From the NCBI GenBank assembly GCA_027450185.1, contig DAIDKF010000020.1, forward strand, positions 1 through 39,629: 39,629 nt of DNA. Direction: 5' to 3'. This document shows, in pieces, positions 3,535 to 22,034 of the stretch (the stretch's first letter is position 1; each line of letters opens with the position of its first letter). The translations under genes and the position numbers were made by a program. Origin of the DNA: Granulicella sp. (GTDB lineage: Bacteria > Acidobacteriota > Terriglobia > Terriglobales > Acidobacteriaceae). The notes under the pieces are model-generated. The model ran no database searches and was not told the DNA's origin. It saw only the letters and a list, made by a program, of their open reading frames with translations.

Positions 3535-4146
3535 ATGGGATATTTGTTGCCAGCAGATTATGTGGCGTTTGGACTATCGGCGGACACGGCCGACTCGTGG
3601 GTGACGACCGCCTCGTCGATGATCGAGGCCTACTGTCGGCGGCCGTCGTTGATGTCTGCAAGTTATACCGAGCGGATGAGAGTGCCGATTAGGCGGCAAA
3701 CCGTACGGCTGAGTTATGGCCCGCTGATCAGCGTGGACTCGATCCGGGCACAGTATGCGCGACCCGGTTATGGGAATGATTTCTACGGCGACTTTGTGTA
3801 TGAGACCGGATACGCCGCAGCGTTTGCGTTGCCGGGTCAGTGGGTGAGTGTAGACCCATCGACTGTCTATGTGAGCCTGCCGACAGGAGAGTTTCACTTT
3901 CCATGGAACATCATGGGAATGCGTTACTGCGAGGCCGAAGTCACCTACACGGGTGGCCTGACAACGGTGCCGACTGCGGTGCAGGTAGCCTGTGCGCAGA
4001 TTGTGCGCAATGCGCAGGCGACGCCTGGCCTGAATGTGAAGTCCAGCAAGATGGACACGCTGCAGACGCAATACTTCAGCGACTCGCTGATGGATAGTCA
4101 GGTGCAGGCGCTGCTGCAGCCGTATGTGGCAGAGAGGCTTGGTTAG
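3535..4146 (+). CDS. Head-tail connector / adaptor protein (gp6-like)
   Basis: A 203-residue protein immediately after the capsid gene. The N-terminus (YLLPADYVAFGLSADTADSW followed by an SSMIEAYCRR segment) resembles the helical start of phage head-tail connector proteins, where a short helix bundle leads to a conserved IeayCgR-like patch. A beta-rich middle and a final helical region (VQVACAQIVRNAQATPGLNV, about 149-168) also fit. Adaptors bind the portal ring and extend the neck. The ATG at 3535 follows GAAGGAGAG. The stop codon is two bases from the next ATG, so the two genes are translationally linked. Assignment rests on motif resemblance and position. Confidence 0.68.
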   Translation: MGYLLPADYVAFGLSADTADSWVTTASSMIEAYCRRPSLMSASYTERMRVPIRRQTVRLSYGPLISVDSIRAQYARPGYGNDFYGDFVYETGYAAAFALPGQWVSVDPSTVYVSLPTGEFHFPWNIMGMRYCEAEVTYTGGLTTVPTAVQVACAQIVRNAQATPGLNVKSSKMDTLQTQYFSDSLMDSQVQALLQPYVAERLG

Positions 4147-8848: not shown

Positions 8849-10513
8849 CTACCCGATGTCCTCCGACCAGTTTTCGAGGCAGGCTTTGAAGTCGGCCATG
8901 AACTTGCCGGCATCGGCTCCGTCGATGATGCGATGGTCGAAGCCGAGGACGAAGTGCTGGACACTGCGAATTGCAATGGTGTCCTGACCATCTTTGTCGG
9001 TGAGCACGAGGACTTCCTTGCCGAGGCCGCCGATGGCGAGAATCGCCGACTGCGGCTGCGCAATGATCGGGGTCCCGAACTCCTCGCCGAAGATGCCGGA
9101 GTTGGTGATGGTGAAGGTGCCGCCGGCGACTTCGTCGGGGGCAAGTTTCTTGCCGCGAGCGCGGTCAGCAACGTCGACGATAGCGCGGGCGATGCCGAGG
9201 AAGCTCTTCTCTTCTGTTTGCTTGATGACGGGGACGATTAGTCCCCACTCCAGCGCAACAGCGATGCCGATGTTGATGTTCTTGTTGTAAAGGATCGCTT
9301 CGCTTTGCATCGATGCATTGACGATTGGATGCTTGCGCAGGGCCTGGATGGCAGCACGCGTGATGAAGGGCATGTAGGTCAGCTTCACGCCATTACGCTG
9401 CTCGTACTTGCCCTTCTCCTTCTCGCGCAGCTTCACGATGCGGGTCATGTCTACCTTGAATACCGTGTGGACGTGCGGGCTGGTGGCTTTGGACTCGACC
9501 ATGCGCTTCGCGATGATGGAGCGCATCTTGGAGAGTGGGACGAGTTCGCCGGGCAAGGGTGCCGGAGCCGGGGCTGCTGCGGCCTTGGCGGGTGCTGGCA
9601 TTGCTACGGGTGTTGCCGCTGCGGGCGGTTGAGGTGCTGCGGCGGGCGCAGGCGTCGTGGACTGCACAACAGCGTGTCCGCCTTCAATGTGGCCGAGGAT
9701 GTCCTGCTTGGTGATGCGGCCGGAGGCTCCGGTCCCAGGGATTTTGCGCAGGTCGACATTGTTCTCGGAGGCGATCTTGCGGACCAGCGGTGAGGAGCGG
9801 GGACGTTCGCCGACTGCGGCTGCGGGAGCAGCGGCCAAGGGCGAGGATGTGCCTGGCGCAGCGGTTGCAGAAGCCGCCGCAGCGGGTTGGGGTGTTGCTG
9901 CCGGAGCTGCGGTGCTTCCGCCGACGATGGCGACCACGGTGTTGATGGTGACGGTCTGGCCCTCCTGCACGCGGATCTCGGAGAGCGTTCCCGCGACGGG
10001 TGAGGGAATCTCGGCATCGACTTTGTCGGTGGAGATTTCGAAGATGGGTTCATCGCGCGCGATGGTGTCACCGACCTTTTTGAGCCACTTGGTGAGCGTG
10101 CCCTCGGTGATGGACTCGCCCATCTGGGGCATCAGGACTTCGGTGCCCGGACCTGTCACGACGGGCGCTGGAGTTGCTGGAGCTTCGGGCGCTGCAGGGG
10201 CAGGCGGAGCGGGAACCACCTCTTTCGGTGCGGAAGAGGCAAGCGTCGCGGCTGGACTCGATGCAGCAGCTTTGCCCGATTCGTTGATGGCGCAAACTAC
10301 AGTGCCAACGATGACGGTAGTACCCTCCTGCACCTTGATCTCGCCGAGTGTTCCAGCGGCAGGCGAGGGAATCTCGGCGTCGACCTTGTCAGTGGAGATT
10401 TCGAAGAGCGGTTCATCACGGGCGACGGTGTCGCCGGGCTTCTTGAGCCACTTGGTGAGGGTGCCTTCGGTGATGGATTCGCCCATCTGGGGCATGACGA
10501 CGTCGATTGGCAT
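8849..10513 (-). CDS. sucB: Dihydrolipoamide acyltransferase, 2-oxoacid dehydrogenase E2 (probably succinyltransferase)
   Basis: E2 forms the core of a 2-oxoacid dehydrogenase complex and moves the acyl group from its lipoyl arm to CoA. The 554-residue protein has two lipoyl domains (residues 1-77 and about 124-199), each with the lipoylation motif TDKVDAEIPSP (Lys43 and Lys164). A Pro/Ala-rich linker leads to a peripheral subunit-binding domain (SSPLVRKIASENNVDLRKIPG, about 240-278) and a catalytic domain from about 325 with the C-terminal DHRIIDGADAGKF (His527, Asp531). The twin lipoyl domains and the motif style resemble actinobacterial-type SucB, but a pyruvate or branched-chain E2 cannot be excluded without the E1 genes, which are not in the window. 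The start has GGAGAAG upstream. It is the last gene of the lpdA-DUF1348-lipB-E2 run. Confidence 0.88.
   Translation of the reverse strand: MPIDVVMPQMGESITEGTLTKWLKKPGDTVARDEPLFEISTDKVDAEIPSPAAGTLGEIKVQEGTTVIVGTVVCAINESGKAAASSPAATLASSAPKEVVPAPPAPAAPEAPATPAPVVTGPGTEVLMPQMGESITEGTLTKWLKKVGDTIARDEPIFEISTDKVDAEIPSPVAGTLSEIRVQEGQTVTINTVVAIVGGSTAAPAATPQPAAAASATAAPGTSSPLAAAPAAAVGERPRSSPLVRKIASENNVDLRKIPGTGASGRITKQDILGHIEGGHAVVQSTTPAPAAAPQPPAAATPVAMPAPAKAAAAPAPAPLPGELVPLSKMRSIIAKRMVESKATSPHVHTVFKVDMTRIVKLREKEKGKYEQRNGVKLTYMPFITRAAIQALRKHPIVNASMQSEAILYNKNINIGIAVALEWGLIVPVIKQTEEKSFLGIARAIVDVADRARGKKLAPDEVAGGTFTITNSGIFGEEFGTPIIAQPQSAILAIGGLGKEVLVLTDKDGQDTIAIRSVQHFVLGFDHRIIDGADAGKFMADFKACLENWSEDIG
9915..10513 (-). 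repeat. Internal duplication: two lipoyl-domain coding units in the E2 gene
   Basis: The segments about 10285-10513 and 9915-10144 encode near-identical lipoyl domains (both contain MGESITEGTLTKWLKK and ISTDKVDAEIPSP). At DNA level the two copies also remain visibly similar, for example around the lysine codons near 10385 and 10022. It is a domain duplication within one gene, not a mobile element. Confidence 0.75.
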
Positions 10514-11871: not shown

Positions 11872-13320
11872 TTAAACGTTGATGGCCATGCCCTCAACCG
11901 AGGAGAAGGCGTCGAGCAGGCTCTCGGACAGTGTGGGATGGGCGTGGATGGTGAACATCAGCTCTTCGACGGTGGCTTCCATCTCCATCGCGACGACGCA
12001 CTCGGCGATGAGCTCGGTGGCTTGTGGACCGATGATGTGGACGCCCAGAACCTCGCCGTACTTTGCGTCGGAGACGACCTTGACGAAGCCGTCATGGGAG
12101 TCGACGATGGTGGCCTTGGAGTTGCCGACGAAGGGGAACTTGCCGACCCTGACCTGATAACCCTTCTCCTTGGCCTGCGCCTCGGTGAGGCCGACGCTGC
12201 CGATCTGCGGGTCGCAGTAGGTGCAGCCCGGGACACGGTCTTTGCGGACGGGGCGAGCATACTTTCCGGCGAGTTTGGTGGCTACGACTACTCCGCTCAT
12301 AGCGCCGACGTGGGCGAGTTGTGGCAGCCCCACGACGATGTCGCCGATGGCATAGACGCCGGGCTCTGTGGTCTCCATCCATTCGTTGACGGGGATGAAT
12401 CCGCGGTCGAGTGTGATCTTCACCTTGTCAAGGCCAGCGTCGGCCGTGCGGGGGCCGCGGCCGACGGCGACGAGAACCTTCTCGGCCTCCTTGACCTGCG
12501 GCTTGCCGGTGGCGTCGGTGAAACTAACCTTTGCGCCGCCTTTGATCTTCTCGATCTTCTCGACCTTGCAGCCGACGTTCACGTCGATGCCCCGCTTCTT
12601 GTAGGCGCGGGTGAGTTCCTTGGATACCTCTTCATCTTCAACGGGAACCATGCGCGGCAGGGCTTCGAGGATCGTGACTTCGGCGCCAAAGCTGCGGAAG
12701 ATGGAGGCGAACTCCACGCCGACGGCGCCGGAGCCGATGACGATGAGCGACTTCGGCAGCGCGGGCAGCGTGAGGATCTCCATGTTGGTGAGGATCGTGT
12801 CGTCGGCCTTGTAGCCCGGGAGCATGCGCGCGTCGGAGCCGGTGGCGAGCACAACCTTACTGCCGAGGACCTGGGTGGCGGTTTGCTGCTCAGAGGCCTG
12901 GGCCTTGCCTTTGTCCTCGGCGGTTACGTCGATGGTGAAGACACCAGCTTTTGCGGGGCCGGTGAGGCGGCCATGGCCGCGCACGACGGTAATCTTGTTC
13001 TTCTTCATGAGGAAGTCGAGGCCCTTGGTGTGCTTCACGATGATGTCGGTCTTGCGCTTGAGCAGGTTTGCCCAGTTGAGCGTTGGCGCGGACACGCCTT
13101 CGATGCCGTAGCTCTCCGCGTGCTTGAGATGGTCCCAGACTTCGGCGGTGAAGAGCATGGCCTTGGTGGGGATGCAACCCCAGTGCAGGCAGGTACCGCC
13201 GAGTACGTCGGTCTTCTCGATGAGGGCGACCTTGAGGCCGAGTTGCGCGGCGCGGATGGCGCAGGTGTAGCCGGCTGGGCCGCCGCCGATGATGACCAGG
13301 TCATAGATAGTTTCTGCCAC
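11872..13320 (-). CDS. lpdA: Dihydrolipoyl dehydrogenase (E3)
   Basis: E3 reoxidises the dihydrolipoyl arm of E2 using FAD and NAD+. The 482-residue protein shows the N-terminal FAD-binding [15 protein letters not shown], the redox-active disulfide [13 protein letters not shown] (Cys44, Cys49), the second dinucleotide fold [13 protein letters not shown], the second FAD motif GVYAIGDIV, and the dimer-interface catalytic pair HAHPTLSE (His461, Glu466). It is full length for the family. A GGAG site precedes the ATG at 13320. It heads the operon lpdA-DUF1348-lipB-E2, which places lipoyl attachment, lipoyl carrier and lipoyl oxidation under one upstream control. Confidence 0.96.
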
Positions 13321-13530
13321 GTCAGTGAACTCCGTTCGTTGGGCGTTAGCGGGAATGAAGCGCGGGGATGCAGCGCGCTCGTTCCGGGTTTATTCGACAG
13401 CTTAGTTTAGCCGCTGCAATGGCCCAGCGCCATTTGATGTTCGAGCCGCCATCCGCGATGCACGGGCGCAGGAGCAGGTTTGCAGGAGGCGTTTGAAGAG
13501 GTTTGCAGCGCTCATGGAGGTGCGCTTTTG

Positions 13531-14019
13531 ATGCCGGAGTTTACGTATAGCGAGAAGGGGTTGGCGCTCACACAGAGCTTTGAAGGCCTGCGACTGGTGG
13601 CTTATCAGGATCCTGTGGGCGTGTGGACGGTGGGATATGGCCATACAGGACCTGGGGTTGGCAAGGGCGTGAGTATTACGGCCACGGAGGCAGAGGCAAT
13701 GCTGCTTGCTGATCTTGAGGACGCGGTGCGCTGTGTGAACCGGAAGGTGACGGCAGCGATCTCGCAGGGGCAGTTTGATGCGATGGTGGACTTTTGCTTC
13801 AATGCGGGTCGCGGCAATTTCTTGCAGTCCACGCTGCTGCGGAAGGTGAACGCGGGCGACTTTGCGGGTGCTGCGGCGCAGTTTGGTTTGTGGGTACATG
13901 CCGACGGCGAGGTGGTACCGGGATTGGTGCGAAGACGTCAGGCGGAGGCGGAGATGTTCAGCGGCCAGCAAACCGCATTAGATCAGCCCAAAACCTTCGC
14001 AGCATCTTTGGCGAAGTAG
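13531..14019 (+). CDS. Phage-type lysozyme (GH24 muramidase)
   Basis: This 162-residue enzyme should cleave the N-acetylmuramic acid to N-acetylglucosamine bond of peptidoglycan. The T4-type catalytic triad is intact with the standard spacing: [11 protein letters not shown] followed by [10 protein letters not shown] gives Glu18-x8-Asp27-x5-Thr33. Further family segments are [15 protein letters not shown] and [13 protein letters not shown]. No signal peptide or signal-arrest-release helix is seen, so export would need a holin. ATG 13531 is preceded by GGAGGT at a 9-base spacing; an upstream TTG (13480) lengthens the frame but has no such site. It stands alone between lpdA and hemB, 4.8 kb from the phage cassette. 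Its last 12 codons are read from the antisense strand of hemB, with a 37-base overlap. Confidence 0.88.
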
Positions 14020-17535: not shown

Positions 17536-17818
17536 TCTTCAAGGGCGTCAGGTGTCCACCCGCGGGAGTTGCGCGAAATGGGTTCCGCTGAGCGGCCAAT
17601 TTCCCCGTTCGCTGCAACATATCCCCATTCGCTGCAGAGCTAGGGACATCCAGTTGCATCTCGCCTAAGCTGATGGATACGAGTCGTAGATGAACTACTC
17701 AACTCGGAAGCACTCATGGGCAGCCGAGTTCTGTGCTGAGTGGGCTTCGAGGATGTGAATCAATCTGGAACGAATCTCTCGCCGCGCGACCGTTGTGGCG
17801 AACCTTCAGGAGACGAAA

Positions 17819-19945
17819 ATGGGAAAAGTAACGAAGCTCTTTGAAAAGGGCGTAGTTCTCGGTGCAAAGGCAGGCTGGGGTGTGTTCAGCAAACTGAACT
17901 CGATCAGCCCCAACGAGAGCTTTACTCCGAAGTGGTCAGATAAGCCCCTTCTGAAGTCCTACCAGAAGGAGAAGCCGCCTCTCGGCTGGCCGCGTACCAC
18001 TGACTCGCTGTGTCCCAAGTGCGTGCCGCAGATCCGCCAGCAGATCGTGGATGGCAAGCTGCCCCATGAGATTCTGCTCAACGAGAAGGTTGGCGAGATC
18101 AAAGCGCAGATCATCGAGCGCGATGGCAAAATTCTGATGGTGAAGGATTGCCCCATCCACGGCCACTTTGAAGATGTGATGTCGATCGATCCCCCGATGA
18201 TGAAGCATCTGGAGGATGTCTTCCCGGGTCGCGATATTCGTGCCCACAACGACGGCAATCTGCACAACCACGGTACCTCGACTGTGACGCATGGGCGTGG
18301 CTCCGTGCTGACCATCGACCTGACCAACCGCTGCAACATGATGTGCGATCCGTGCTTCATGGACGCCAACCAGGTTGGGTTTGTGCACGAGTTGACGTGG
18401 GACGAGATCAAGACCATGCTCGACAACGCCATCACCATCAAGCCCAAGCGCCAGATGTCGGTGCAGTTCTCTGGCGGTGAGCCGACCTTGAGTCCGTACT
18501 TTCTGGATGCTGTCGCGTATGCCCGCAAGGTTGGTTATAACTCGGTGCAGGCTGCCACGAATGGCATTGAGTTTGCGAAGTCGAAGGAGTTTGCGAAGGC
18601 CGCCGCGGAGGCGGGTCTGCGCTACGCCTATCTGCAGTTTGACGGGATTGGCAATGCCGCGAACTCGCATCGCAAGGTCGGCAATGCGTTCGACGTGAAG
18701 TTGCAGGCGATCCACAATCTGCATGAGGCTGGAGTGGATATCGTTCCGGTTACGACCATTGTCAATGGCATCAACAACGAGCAGGTTGGCCGCATCATTC
18801 AGTTCGCGCTCGACAACCCGAAGAAGATCAACTTTTTATCGTTCCAGCCGGTCAGCTTCACTGGCCGCGATGAGGACATCTCGGACGAGCGCCGTGCGGC
18901 GCAGCGTTACACGCTCTCGCACATGGCGCACGATATCCGCGACCAGACGGGTCTGGGTGAAAGCACGCGCGACTGGTTCCCGATCAGCTTTATGTCCACG
19001 TTCAGCGATTGGGCCGATCTGGTGCATGGGCCGGAGCATGATTGGGGCCAGCTCTCATGCGGCTGCCACCCAAATTGCGGCATTGGCATGGCGCTGATGA
19101 TCGATAAGGAAACCAAAGAAGCTGTTCCAGTTACTGCGTTTCTGAATGCGACGCGTCTTGCTCAGGATATTGCTCGCGTAAACGATGCGGCACGCGGCAA
19201 GATTCTGACCATGGTCGGTGCGGCTCTCGCGCTGATCCGCAACTATGAGCCGGCCAAGGCACCCACGCACTTCAGCATCTTTTCACTGTTGGCGAAGTTC
19301 GATAAGTGCTTCGGCGCCACGGGGCGGCAGTATGGAAAGGTCACGGCGGACCGTACCATTGAAGACATCAAGATGCGGCGCGCCGATCGCTGGAACTTCC
19401 TGTTCATCGCAGGTATGTGGTTCCAGGATCTGTTCAACTACGACTTCCGCCGCACCGAGCAGTGCATCATTCCGTATGCAACGCAGGAGGGTGAGATCAG
19501 CTTCTGTGCTTACAATACAGGCATTGGCTGGCGCAACATCATCGAAAAAATGCACATGACCTCCTCGCTCACCAAGTGGTATGAAGAGCACGGTCGCCAT
19601 GAGATCTTTGCAGGCGGCAAGAAGGTCGGTCTGGAGAGGGAAGCCAAGTATGACCTGGTGCTTAATCAGGCGCATGTGGATTCGGCTGCGAACGACACCT
19701 TCGACAAGAGTGGCATCGCCAAGAATGCGCGCGAGGAGAAGATCCGCGCTCGCGATCAAAAGTTGAAGGAAGATGCCGAGAACGCCCGCATGGCCAAGCT
19801 GTATCGCAAGGAAATTCTCAAGGAACCAGAGCTTCCTGGAGGGTTCGTTGCGATTGGCGAGATCGGTGGACTGGGTGGCATCAAGCCCGCTGCGCACAAG
19901 GCTGAGGTCGTCAAGAACATTGAAGAGACAGTGGCTGGCGACTAG
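17819..19945 (+). CDS. Radical SAM enzyme of the tetraether / membrane-spanning lipid synthase type (Tes/Mss-like)
   Basis: A 708-residue radical SAM protein. The SAM cluster motif is RCNMMCDPC (Cys172, 176, 179), with GGEP at 219-222. Extra cysteines fall in groups: SLCPKC (65, 68) plus Cys111 in KDCPIHGHF, then SCGCHPNC (414, 416, 420), Cys497, Cys549 and Cys563. This arrangement resembles that of the archaeal tetraether synthase (MJ0619 type), with a Cys-rich N-terminal domain and auxiliary metal sites. Those enzymes join lipid tails by radical C-C coupling. Acidobacteria make iso-diabolic, membrane-spanning acids, so this is a strong candidate for that step. The N-terminal 30 residues are basic and amphipathic and could lie on the membrane. 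The C-terminal 100 residues are a charged helical extension. ATG 17819 has AGGAG six bases upstream; GTG 17795 is the less likely start. A terminator follows at 19972. Confidence 0.8.
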   Translation: MGKVTKLFEKGVVLGAKAGWGVFSKLNSISPNESFTPKWSDKPLLKSYQKEKPPLGWPRTTDSLCPKCVPQIRQQIVDGKLPHEILLNEKVGEIKAQIIERDGKILMVKDCPIHGHFEDVMSIDPPMMKHLEDVFPGRDIRAHNDGNLHNHGTSTVTHGRGSVLTIDLTNRCNMMCDPCFMDANQVGFVHELTWDEIKTMLDNAITIKPKRQMSVQFSGGEPTLSPYFLDAVAYARKVGYNSVQAATNGIEFAKSKEFAKAAAEAGLRYAYLQFDGIGNAANSHRKVGNAFDVKLQAIHNLHEAGVDIVPVTTIVNGINNEQVGRIIQFALDNPKKINFLSFQPVSFTGRDEDISDERRAAQRYTLSHMAHDIRDQTGLGESTRDWFPISFMSTFSDWADLVHGPEHDWGQLSCGCHPNCGIGMALMIDKETKEAVPVTAFLNATRLAQDIARVNDAARGKILTMVGAALALIRNYEPAKAPTHFSIFSLLAKFDKCFGATGRQYGKVTADRTIEDIKMRRADRWNFLFIAGMWFQDLFNYDFRRTEQCIIPYATQEGEISFCAYNTGIGWRNIIEKMHMTSSLTKWYEEHGRHEIFAGGKKVGLEREAKYDLVLNQAHVDSAANDTFDKSGIAKNAREEKIRARDQKLKEDAENARMAKLYRKEILKEPELPGGFVAIGEIGGLGGIKPAAHKAEVVKNIEETVAGD

Positions 19946-19998: not shown

Positions 19999-20173
19999 GT
20001 TTGCTTCGTGGGCTTGACCTGGGGCTCTGCGCGCAGACGCGAGTACCCACATTTGTATGCTGAGATGGTCGAGAGCCCTATTCTTCAGGTGAGTGACGGA
20101 TCATCTCCATGCTCCGCAGGATGTTGACGTCATCCTCAATCCTTCCGATTTATTCGATGATGGGAAGTAAGTG

Positions 20174-21307
20174 ATGGATGATCCGTGTGTCATTCGCTGT
20201 CCGATGGTGCATCCTAGTAGATACCCGGAGGGCTATGTGACCCAAGCTTACATCAATCGCATTGCGTCCGCTGTACCAGAGGATGATGTCCACGGCGCGT
20301 TTGTGGCCTTTGCTGACCAGATGCTCGAGGATCCACGGGTGCAGCCGGTATTCAGGCGCATGGCTGCAAGGTCTGGCATACGGCGGCGCTTCTCCGTGCT
20401 GACACCGAATGCTGCGAGCACGGAGTTCACGGTCAACGCGCACGAGTTCTACACGCGCGGCAGTTTTCCCGATACGGCGAAACGGATGCAGATCTTCGAG
20501 CGCTTCGCGCCGAGGCTCGCACAGCGGACATTGGACAAGCTCATGCTTACTGAAGAGGAACGGCTTGGTGTGACACACGTGCTGGTTACGTCCTGCACGG
20601 GGCTGTACGCGCCGGGACTCGACTTCGATATCCTCGATCACCTCGGGCTGGACACGTCGGTGGAACGCACGATGATCGGCTTCATGGGATGCTATGCGGC
20701 GATTAATGGGTTGAAGCAGGCTCGGCATATCGTCCGGTCGGAACCTGCGGCGAAGGTGTTGCTGGTGAACCTGGAACTCTGCACGCTGCACCTGCAGGAG
20801 ACGCAGGACCTGGAACAGGTGCTGTCGTTCCTGGTCTTCGGCGATGGCTGCGCGGCCAGCCTGATCAGTGCAGAGCCGACGGGATTCGCGATGGACAGCT
20901 TCCGCTCCATTCTGATTCCTGAGACGCGGGAGTTGATCACATGGCGGATACGGGGGGTGGGGTTCGATATGCTGCTGTCGGGGAAGGTGCCGGGGGAGAT
21001 TGGGAAGGCGTTGGCGGTTTCGGGGGGCAAGGTGCTGGGTGGGTGCGGCAAGGAGGAGATTTCGCTGTGGGGAGTCCATCCGGGCGGGAAGTCGGTGCTG
21101 GATGCGGTAGAGCGCGGTCTGGGGCTGGCGGAGGATGCGCTGGCGGCTTCGCGACAGACGCTGGAGAGCTTTGGAAACATGAGCTCAGCGACCGTGATGT
21201 TCGTGCTGGAGCGACTGATGCAGGGAGCGCGTCCTGGGGAGAAGGGCTGTGCGATGTCGTTCGGTCCGGGGCTTACGGCGGAGACGATGCTCTTCCATGC
21301 CGTCTGA
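20174..21307 (+). CDS. Type III polyketide synthase (chalcone/stilbene synthase family)
   Basis: A 377-residue thiolase-fold enzyme that should extend an acyl-CoA starter with malonyl-CoA units and cyclise the product. The catalytic triad of type III PKSs is visible: Cys173 in GFMGCYAAINGLK, His302 in WGVHPGGKSVLD and Asn335 in SFGNMSSATVMF. VTSCTGLYAPGLD and the C-terminal SFGPGLTAETMLF are also typical. ATG 20174 is preceded by GTG 20171, and the ribosome binding site is weak. A TGACGTCA palindrome lies about 45 bases upstream (20125-20132). The gene overlaps the next methyltransferase by 11 bases. PKS plus methyltransferase pairs in other bacteria make methylated alkylresorcinol or alkylpyrone phenolic lipids; the starter used here cannot be read from sequence. 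Confidence 0.92.
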   Translation: MDDPCVIRCPMVHPSRYPEGYVTQAYINRIASAVPEDDVHGAFVAFADQMLEDPRVQPVFRRMAARSGIRRRFSVLTPNAASTEFTVNAHEFYTRGSFPDTAKRMQIFERFAPRLAQRTLDKLMLTEEERLGVTHVLVTSCTGLYAPGLDFDILDHLGLDTSVERTMIGFMGCYAAINGLKQARHIVRSEPAAKVLLVNLELCTLHLQETQDLEQVLSFLVFGDGCAASLISAEPTGFAMDSFRSILIPETRELITWRIRGVGFDMLLSGKVPGEIGKALAVSGGKVLGGCGKEEISLWGVHPGGKSVLDAVERGLGLAEDALAASRQTLESFGNMSSATVMFVLERLMQGARPGEKGCAMSFGPGLTAETMLFHAV

Positions 21308-22034
21308 GCCGGTGATGAACCTCTCGCGGCGAGCAGCGCCCTCGGAGCTGCCTGAGTGGATGGATGAACCGTGCTCGTATGAAGAGTTCCGCGCATGCCT
21401 GGTCGACCTGGGGCAGCTAAACCGGCTGACGCTGTCTTATCGTCCGACGTTGGCATTCCTTGACAGCATCGTTGCAACGAGCGGACGACCAGAGCCGTTG
21501 CGGATTGTGGATGTGGGTTCGGGTGGAGGCGACATGCTACGGCGCGTGGAGCGTTGGGCAGAGCGGCGAGGCGTTGCGGTTACGCTTACTGGCATCGACC
21601 TGAACCCTCATGCGGTGCGGGCGGCGCAGGAGTTTACGCCGGCGGCTAGTAAGATTACGTGGCTCACCGGCGATGCGTTCACTTATACGGAGCCGGTGGA
21701 TGTGGTGATGAGCTCCCTGTTTACGCATCACCTGGAGGAGGGCGAGGTGGTGCGTTTCCTGGCGTGGAGCGAGGCTGCTGCGCGGAGAGGGTGGTTCGTC
21801 AACGACCTGTGCCGCGAAGAGGTGCCCTTCCGGCTCTTCGGGTTGCTGGCCAAGACGATGCGCTGGCATCGGTTTGTGCAGCATGATGGGCCAGTGTCGT
21901 TCCGGCGCAGCTTCCGCGAAGAGGATTGGGTGCGGATGTTGCTTGCGGTGGGAATTGACGTTGAGGATGTGCGCCTGGCGCGATGGACTCCCGCACGCTT
22001 GTGCGTGGATCGGGTGAAGGGAAGACTGAGTTGA
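21297..22034 (+). CDS. SAM-dependent methyltransferase (class I) coupled to the type III PKS
   Basis: A 245-residue class I methyltransferase. The glycine-rich SAM motif is IVDVGSGGGDML, followed by an acidic residue in LTGIDLNPHAVRAA, a TWLTGDAF segment for the adenine side, and SSLFTHHLEEGEVVRFL as the post-motif region. The start ATG 21297 overlaps the PKS stop by 11 bases and has GGAGA upstream; a second ATG at 21315 is possible. The tight overlap with the PKS means coupled translation, so the substrate is most likely the PKS product, giving an O- or C-methylated phenolic lipid. A third gene, such as the flavoprotein hydroxylase seen in some phenolic-lipid operons, is absent here. Confidence 0.88.
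   Translation: MPSEPVMNLSRRAAPSELPEWMDEPCSYEEFRACLVDLGQLNRLTLSYRPTLAFLDSIVATSGRPEPLRIVDVGSGGGDMLRRVERWAERRGVAVTLTGIDLNPHAVRAAQEFTPAASKITWLTGDAFTYTEPVDVVMSSLFTHHLEEGEVVRFLAWSEAAARRGWFVNDLCREEVPFRLFGLLAKTMRWHRFVQHDGPVSFRRSFREEDWVRMLLAVGIDVEDVRLARWTPARLCVDRVKGRLS

Follow-up and report, generated by a model that had tools for sequence, protein, structure and literature searches.

We describe a bacterial radical SAM protein, encoded at 17819-19945 of the window (by which we mean the whole stretch of DNA analysed, 39,629 nucleotides), that is like the tetraether lipid synthase Tes (MJ0619) in fold and active site but neither reaches the curated score cut-off for Tes nor carries its whole set of ligands. 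It belongs to a class, here called A, whose members lack the cysteines that hold the N-terminal [Fe4S4] cluster of MJ0619. Class A is probably a tail-coupling synthase of the Tes type that makes iso-diabolic acid with one cluster fewer. We regard this as a well-motivated candidate role. A role for bacterial homologues of Tes in making membrane-spanning lipids has already been put forward in print as a hypothesis; what is new here is the recognition of two classes, of the lost ligands and of the distribution. In the literature searched, which was partial in coverage, we found no paper that separates class A from class C (bacterial Tes) or notes the lost ligands, and no activity test of class A.

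The gene and its relationship to Tes

The gene lies on the forward strand and encodes 708 amino acids, from an ATG at 17819 to a TAG stop at 19943-19945; there is an in-frame GTG at 17795.

17808..17812, + strand: AGGAG, likely ribosome-binding site, 6 bases upstream of the ATG
17819..19945, + strand: Tes-like radical SAM protein (window type, class A), recognized by open reading frame, domains, HMM, structure match and ligand alignment
17822..17899, + strand: N-terminal helix, residues 2-27, basic and amphipathic, as modelled (pLDDT by blocks 79, 95 and 92)
19619..19942, + strand: charged C-terminal tail, residues 601-708, lineage-specific, with model confidence low from residue 665 on

The reading frame, its CX3CX2C motif (C172/C176/C179) and all the cysteines named in an earlier, sequence-only reading of this DNA are present. 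Two domains exceed their cut-offs, PF04055 (Radical_SAM) and PF23545 (Zn_ribbon_HMPTM, a rubredoxin-like domain). Relatives within the genus are 89-93% identical. The protein was said to be about 200 residues longer than MJ0619, and so it is when set against the MJ0619 chain of 526 residues that we used, the numbering of which runs 20 ahead of the published one.

The gene is real and its similarity to Tes is far beyond chance. Among NCBIfam models it matches NF045702, the tetraether lipid synthase Tes, best (E 2.9e-94), and the solved structure closest to it by sequence is MJ0619 (7TOL/7TOM; E 3e-59, 30.8% identity), followed by MoaA at 4e-6. We also built an AlphaFold2 model from 32 sequences (mean pLDDT 74.2, pTM 0.78), whose confidence is low near the clusters and along the tail. 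Foldseek against the PDB places 7tom at the top for this model, with E 5.1e-26 and a TM of 0.80 by target and of 0.58 by query; 7tol also ranks at the top, with a TM of 0.81, and SkfB is third (E 1.1e-6, TM 0.41). HMM, sequence, fold and the alignment of the ligands all bear out the resemblance to MJ0619 that had been proposed from the sequence, and the structural superposition then suggested gives MJ0619 as the top match. Best matches to an unrelated radical SAM family, named at the time as the outcome that would speak against it, did not occur: the next model, TrsS, scores 213 bits, 100 below Tes, and the NirJ/AhbC types score 66-82 bits.

Tes is the top model, and its score of 316 bits stays under the curated equivalog cut-off of 450 bits; in our sample of the phylum the best listed match under that cut-off reaches 350 bits. 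Because of this shortfall, the separate clade described below and the absent N-terminal [Fe4S4] cysteines, class A is not a Tes equivalog.

The sequence-only reading laid weight on the two ends of the protein. Its basic amphipathic N-terminus is modelled as a helix, and a stretch of similar make-up is found in the 11 relatives compared. The charged C-terminal extension of about 100 residues is also there, and it varies: the window protein has 119 residues beyond residue 590, five of the 11 relatives only 53-67. We rejected the tail as a key feature on account of this variation; a lineage-specific extension is unlikely to be the key part.

Cluster ligands

The window protein was aligned with MJ0619 (residues 35-512) and 125 homologues. 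By their scores the homologues fall into four classes: class A, the window type, with 83 sequences (the host's family contributes 45), class B (3), class C (37) and class D (archaeal-like, 2). The ligands were checked again in 80 named class A relatives, the best 80 of 582. For MJ0619 the available part of PMC9433317 gives rubredoxin ligands C9/C12/C33/H36, an N-terminal [Fe4S4] held by C73/C77/C80 and a His, the radical SAM CX3CX2C, a C-terminal [Fe4S4] with a labile Met439, and Tyr459. Ligand numbers follow that paper; C338/C455/C470 and H83 are assigned as ligands from conservation.

17990..18184, + strand: rubredoxin-like domain PF23545, ligands C65, C68, C111 and H114 (the cysteines in 83/83 class A, H114 in 82/83)
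18257..18289, + strand: site of the missing N-terminal [Fe4S4] ligands, where MJ0619 C73/C77/C80/H83 align with N147/H151/S154/T157
18332..18355, + strand: CX3CX2C, radical SAM [Fe4S4] ligands C172/C176/C179 (83/83 class A, 80/80 named)
19058..19078, + strand: CGCHPNC motif with C414, C416 and C420 (= MJ0619 C338, a C-terminal cluster ligand as judged from conservation)
19307..19309, + strand: Cys497, named in the sequence-only reading
19415..19507, + strand: rest of the C-terminal cluster site, Met533 (= Met439), C549 (= C455), Tyr553 (= Tyr459) and C563 (= C470)

Two of the sites of MJ0619 beside the radical SAM cluster are matched. The cysteine group 65/68/111 singled out earlier is a real site, the C-x2-C ... 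C-x2-H of rubredoxin (C65/C68/C111/H114), and its cysteines are found in 80/80 named relatives. The C-terminal [Fe4S4] site, with its labile Met and its Tyr, corresponds to C420/C549/C563/M533/Y553; all five residues occur in 83/83 class A sequences, and among the named relatives C420 occurs in 80/80 and the other four in 79/80, with one gap. The group 497/549/563, proposed at the same time, does not form a site. The residues that correspond are 420/549/563 with Met533, and we rejected Cys497 as a ligand since it is Cys in only 28/83 class A sequences and in 0/80 named ones.

The other auxiliary cluster of Tes, the N-terminal [Fe4S4], has no cysteines to align with, a point that the earlier reading overlooked; the window protein has N147, H151 and S154 there. 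All three positions are without Cys in 83/83 class A sequences (three have gaps at 147) and in 80/80 named relatives (one gap at 147), and the latter have no Cys at all in residues 140-165. One class A sequence, L127, has a Cys elsewhere in this stretch. H151 and S154 are invariant in class A. Class C keeps C73/C77/C80 and the His in 37/37. Class A suggests that the N-terminal cluster is dispensable for at least one branch. Class A has also an extra CxC: C414 and C416 are invariant, and the cysteines of CGCHPNC are present in 80/80 named relatives. Of the class C sequences, 30/37 have a Cys aligned with C416 and 0/37 have one aligned with C414.

Classes A to D

In a tree of 59 sequences, drawn with midpoint rooting that does not fix the position of the root, classes A and B form one clade (support 100/100) on a stem of 1.68 changes per column. 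Class C, class D and MJ0619 all fall outside it, in a tree where long branches lead to MJ0619 and to two class C rows and where MJ0619 and class D are unlike in amino-acid composition. Identity to MJ0619 is 29-37% for class A (29-32% in the host's family) and 40-44% for class C.

Class B is the sister of a second class A subgroup. Its members have lost the equivalents of C420, C549 and Y553 (3/3 each) and have kept the rubredoxin and radical SAM sites, and they likely run a different chemistry. They are paralogues (L128, L129 and L130, in genomes G117, G130 and G077). The two class D sequences, L070 (G429) and L071 (G457), are archaeal-type Tes, 46-48% identical to MJ0619 with the Tes ligands kept. 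Their presence in two genomes filed as Acidobacteriota is due either to transfer or to bin contamination.

Distribution

The sequence-only reading assigned this DNA to an acidobacterium, and that phylum is correct. In the 150 genomes of the host order, with class A counted at E 1e-200 or below, class A occurs in 135: 131/136 in the host's family and 4/14 in the second family. One copy in the host's family (G064:C1:980579-982711) has an in-frame stop, which is a broken gene or a sequencing error. Among the matches listed, six of the 14 genomes of the second family have only a Tes-range match (five listed rows at 39% identity, and G007, judged by its E-value; the alignment assigns two of the six, G001 and G025, to class C). 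None has both class A and a Tes-range match among the matches listed (down to 1.4e-90), and four, all less than 90% complete, have neither class among those matches.

Of 396 Acidobacteriota genomes that sample the phylum, 185 carry class A at E 1e-160 (166/353 good genomes; 97/209 genera). A Tes match over the cut-off is found in 37/396, two of them being the archaeal-like class D; both kinds occur together in 15/396 and neither in 189/396. Eight or nine of these 189 have a middling match to the Tes HMM, about 1e-57 to 1e-72 (G232, G239, G367, G420, G425, G474, G499, G525), perhaps a further subfamily; G425 and G499 belong to the class containing G225. In that class, presumably Holophagae, the class A query matched 0/73 genomes at 1e-40, a search that held no known matching genome; the same query matched elsewhere in the phylum.

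Among the best 80 of 582 matches, named class A records of the phylum include Bryobacterales, Pyrinomonadaceae, Aridibacter famidurans, Luteitalea sp. and Blastocatellia. The Bryobacterales, Pyrinomonadaceae/Aridibacter and Luteitalea records we take to represent SD3, SD4 and SD6. Class A is also present in records titled, as recorded, Holophagales (L139) and Thermoanaerobaculia (L146), which blurs any argument from absence in Holophagae. Three two-contig genomes of 3.7 Mb with class A (G284, G307, G342) may be Chloracidobacterium, which has two chromosomes and in which iso-diabolic acid is reported (PMC12816986, available part).

Outside the phylum, class A appears among the best 80 of 582 matches in Sorangium cellulosum, Minicystis rosea, Polyangium, other delta/myxobacterial records and one Latescibacterota record. 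In Polyangia, the class of Sorangium, 23/114 genomes have a match at 1e-40, which in one case is fragmented. Seven sequences from Sorangium, Minicystis and Polyangium (L158, L160, L162, L165, L167, L196, L216) have the residues of the window protein at the checked ligand positions except at 147. We found no report of iso-diabolic acid or diacid lipids for Polyangia, or for these three genera, in the literature searched.

Gene context

When 69 class A loci are compared, the widest-shared neighbour groups occur in 6/69 and none points to lipids. The MutS2, HemB and E3 subunit neighbours of the class A gene in the window are shared only with the same-genus locus L133 among the 69. With neighbours shared in at most 6/69 loci, we rejected gene context as a clue to function.

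An operon of class A with Tes was considered as well. Four genomes (G042, G012, G022, G094) carry a class A gene and a class C gene on the same strand, 0.2 to 6 kb apart; at locus L118 only 245 bases separate them on one strand, and at L119, L120 and L121 opposite-strand genes are called between them. In at least nine other genomes class A and Tes are on different contigs (G241, G477, G483, G543; also G157, G165, G172, G174 and G187, where class A is assigned by score only). The operon was rejected because of those opposite-strand genes in three of the four cases and the different contigs in at least nine genomes. In the window's own genome (54% complete) the other Tes-like genes are only two weak radical SAM matches at 25% identity.

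Several other genes of the window can be mentioned. Phage-like genes at 9-1262, 3535-4146 and 13480-14019 encode a portal protein, a head-tail adaptor and an endolysin, the last standing alone between the E3 (lpd-like) gene and hemB; five other open reading frames tested between 2487 and 8463 gave no PHROG match. Positions 8849-10513 encode E2 (two lipoyl domains) and 11872-13320 encode E3 of a 2-oxoacid dehydrogenase; such complexes can supply branched fatty-acid primers. Just downstream of the class A gene, at 20171-22034, there is a gene resembling type III polyketide synthases (118 bits with the DpgA model, under its cut-off). A methyltransferase gene comes next and overlaps it, and neither has a match in the other 68 loci compared.

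Proposed function and its alternatives

Class A would join the ends of two fatty-acyl tails, probably iso-C15 phospholipid tails, by Csp3-Csp3 coupling, and the products would be membrane-spanning lipids of the iso-diabolic acid type. SAM at the C172/C176/C179 cluster would be cleaved to give a 5'-deoxyadenosyl radical, which would abstract a hydrogen from the end of one tail. The resulting radical would be held on a sulfur of the C-terminal cluster (C420/C549/C563, with Met533 as labile ligand), and a second SAM would lead to a second tail radical that attacks the carbon held there. This mechanism is the one known for MJ0619; for class A, we infer the substrate, the product and the ability to work without the N-terminal [Fe4S4]. 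The available part of PMC9433317 describes the use of two SAM for each bond and a lipid-sulfur intermediate associated with the C-terminal cluster. It also reports that the M439A and Tyr459 variants are still active, so conservation of the Met and the Tyr is not proof of the reaction.

The match to Tes by HMM and to MJ0619 by sequence and fold speaks for synthesis of iso-diabolic acid by class A, as does the coupling site, kept in 83/83 class A and 79/80 named sequences. The distribution agrees in several respects. Class A is present in 131/136 genomes of the host's family, to which Edaphobacter presumably belongs. Iso-diabolic acid makes up 11.8-30.4% of the fatty acids in six Edaphobacter columns, and two new strains were grown aerobically (PMC11354219, available part). 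The available part of PMC13274423 cites a survey of 46 strains from seven SDs in which SD 1, 3, 4 and 6 yielded iso-diabolic acid, and attributes iso-diabolic tetraesters to Koribacter; class A is found in records that we take to represent SD3, SD4 and SD6, and in the class presumed to be Holophagae it is found in 0/73. In the second family of the order 4/14 genomes have class A, 6/14 have a Tes-range match only and none has both among the matches listed. Zeng et al. proposed bacterial Tes homologues as the makers of brGDGT, and the available part of their paper gives one Tes homologue, 32% identical to M. acetivorans Tes, for the brGDGT producer Edaphobacter aggregans, and 40-42% for those of Solibacter and Koribacter (PMC8941075); for S. 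usitatus, one or both Tes homologues are discussed in what is available of PMC10087280. Since 32% fits the class A of the host's family (29-32%) and not class C (40-44%), in a comparison where the queries differ, the E. aggregans homologue is probably class A.

Other observations count against iso-diabolic acid as the product: the HMM score under the Tes cut-off; the missing N-terminal cysteines of class A; the lack of a lipid gene among common neighbours (at most 6/69 loci); class A in Polyangia (23/114); the 189/396 Acidobacteriota with neither class A nor Tes over the cut-off; the class A and Tes genes that are near each other in four genomes and on different contigs in at least nine; and Mss, which could make the lipid instead. 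If an enzyme of the Mss type or a class C Tes makes iso-diabolic acid, class A could carry out a related change of membrane lipids, such as a chain cross-link or a ring. We consider this unlikely, though in its favour are class C, with all Tes ligands kept in 37/37; the 37/396 genomes with Tes over the cut-off; the 15/396 genomes that hold class A together with such a Tes; and the Mss matches in 11/97 Black Sea Acidobacteria MAGs (PMC11868695, whose available part also states that bacterial Tes activity is not yet confirmed). However, Tes over the cut-off, at 37/396 with two of these being class D, is too rare for a lipid common in SD1, whereas class A is in 131/136, and E. aggregans is reported, in the part of the paper available, with one Tes homologue of class A-like identity. 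The published Mss matches may or may not include class A.

It is quite improbable, in our estimate, that class A acts at its C-terminal cluster on some different long hydrophobic substrate, so that the overlap with iso-diabolic acid reflects ancestry only. Class A in Polyangia (23/114) and in one Latescibacterota record, the separate clade with its long stem of 1.68, the missing N-terminal ligands and the extra CxC would all suit such an enzyme, but its coupling site, Met and Tyr included, is nearly or fully invariant, and the three class B sequences with their lost ligands show what a changed chemistry might look like. A peptide- or cofactor-modifying enzyme of the SPASM, NirJ or TrsS type is very improbable. 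TrsS is the second HMM and the NirJ/AhbC types follow, yet Tes scores 100 bits more than TrsS, the PF23545 rubredoxin domain is present, and MJ0619 is the only solved structure that matches most of the fold; HMM, sequence, ligands and fold largely refute this reading.

Returning to class A as the maker of iso-diabolic acid, a further suggestion can be made, more tentatively. Class A might be an aerobe's synthase that dropped the surface [Fe4S4]N and gained a CxC beside the C-terminal cluster, so that iso-diabolic acid is made in oxygen-respiring Acidobacteria. If this somewhat doubtful idea is correct, Sorangium, Polyangium and Minicystis are predicted to make membrane-spanning lipids not yet reported. 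In hand-picked genomes, cytochrome oxidase subunit I is found in 28/30 with class A only versus 21/29 with a Tes-range match only (Fisher two-sided p 0.042, uncorrected for relatedness). Within the second family of the order it is present in both kinds, 10/10. These counts are weak evidence that loss of the N-terminal cluster helps in oxygen. In the available part of PMC9433317 this cluster of MJ0619 is surface-located, and the roles of the remaining cofactors are called unclear.

Soils and sediments record past temperature and pH in their branched tetraethers, which are built on iso-diabolic acid. Which enzyme couples the tails in Acidobacteria is still to be proven, and our analysis points to one candidate gene. 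The label 'Tes homologue', as used for Acidobacteria, takes in two distinct classes. Class A offers a natural variant of MJ0619 without one cluster, to which the structure paper assigned no definite role, and organisms outside the phylum can now be named whose lipids can be checked.

Comparison with known systems

The TrsS radical SAM (seleno)protein model (NF045646) resembles the window protein as the second-best HMM (213 bits), but its best stretch covers only residues 93-378 and is below its cut-off of 490. As a probe for Mss this model was uninformative: at 1e-15 it matched E. coli and ten other controls besides Thermotoga maritima. The Mss of T. maritima is alike in proposed product type (diabolic-type diacids), and in the available part of PMC13274423 a Tes-like architecture is reported for models of Mss. 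It differs in that the T. maritima genome, taken as a stand-in for the sequence of the tested Mss, has no PF23545 match at 0.001 and no match to the Tes HMM at 1e-40.

Class C Tes is found in the same phylum as class A, is its near neighbour in four genomes and has the same C-terminal cluster positions. In contrast to class A it keeps C73/C77/C80/H83 in 37/37, is 40-44% identical to MJ0619 and falls in a different clade. Compared with MJ0619 (GDGT-MAS, Tes) itself, the window protein has no N-terminal [Fe4S4] cysteines and has the additional, invariant CxC; it is longer by 56 residues ahead of the first rubredoxin Cys and by a tail of about 100, and the identity is 30.8%; yet the two share the fold (TM 0.80-0.81 by target, 0.58 by query), the rubredoxin site, the radical SAM cluster and the positions of the C-terminal [Fe4S4], with its labile Met and conserved Tyr.
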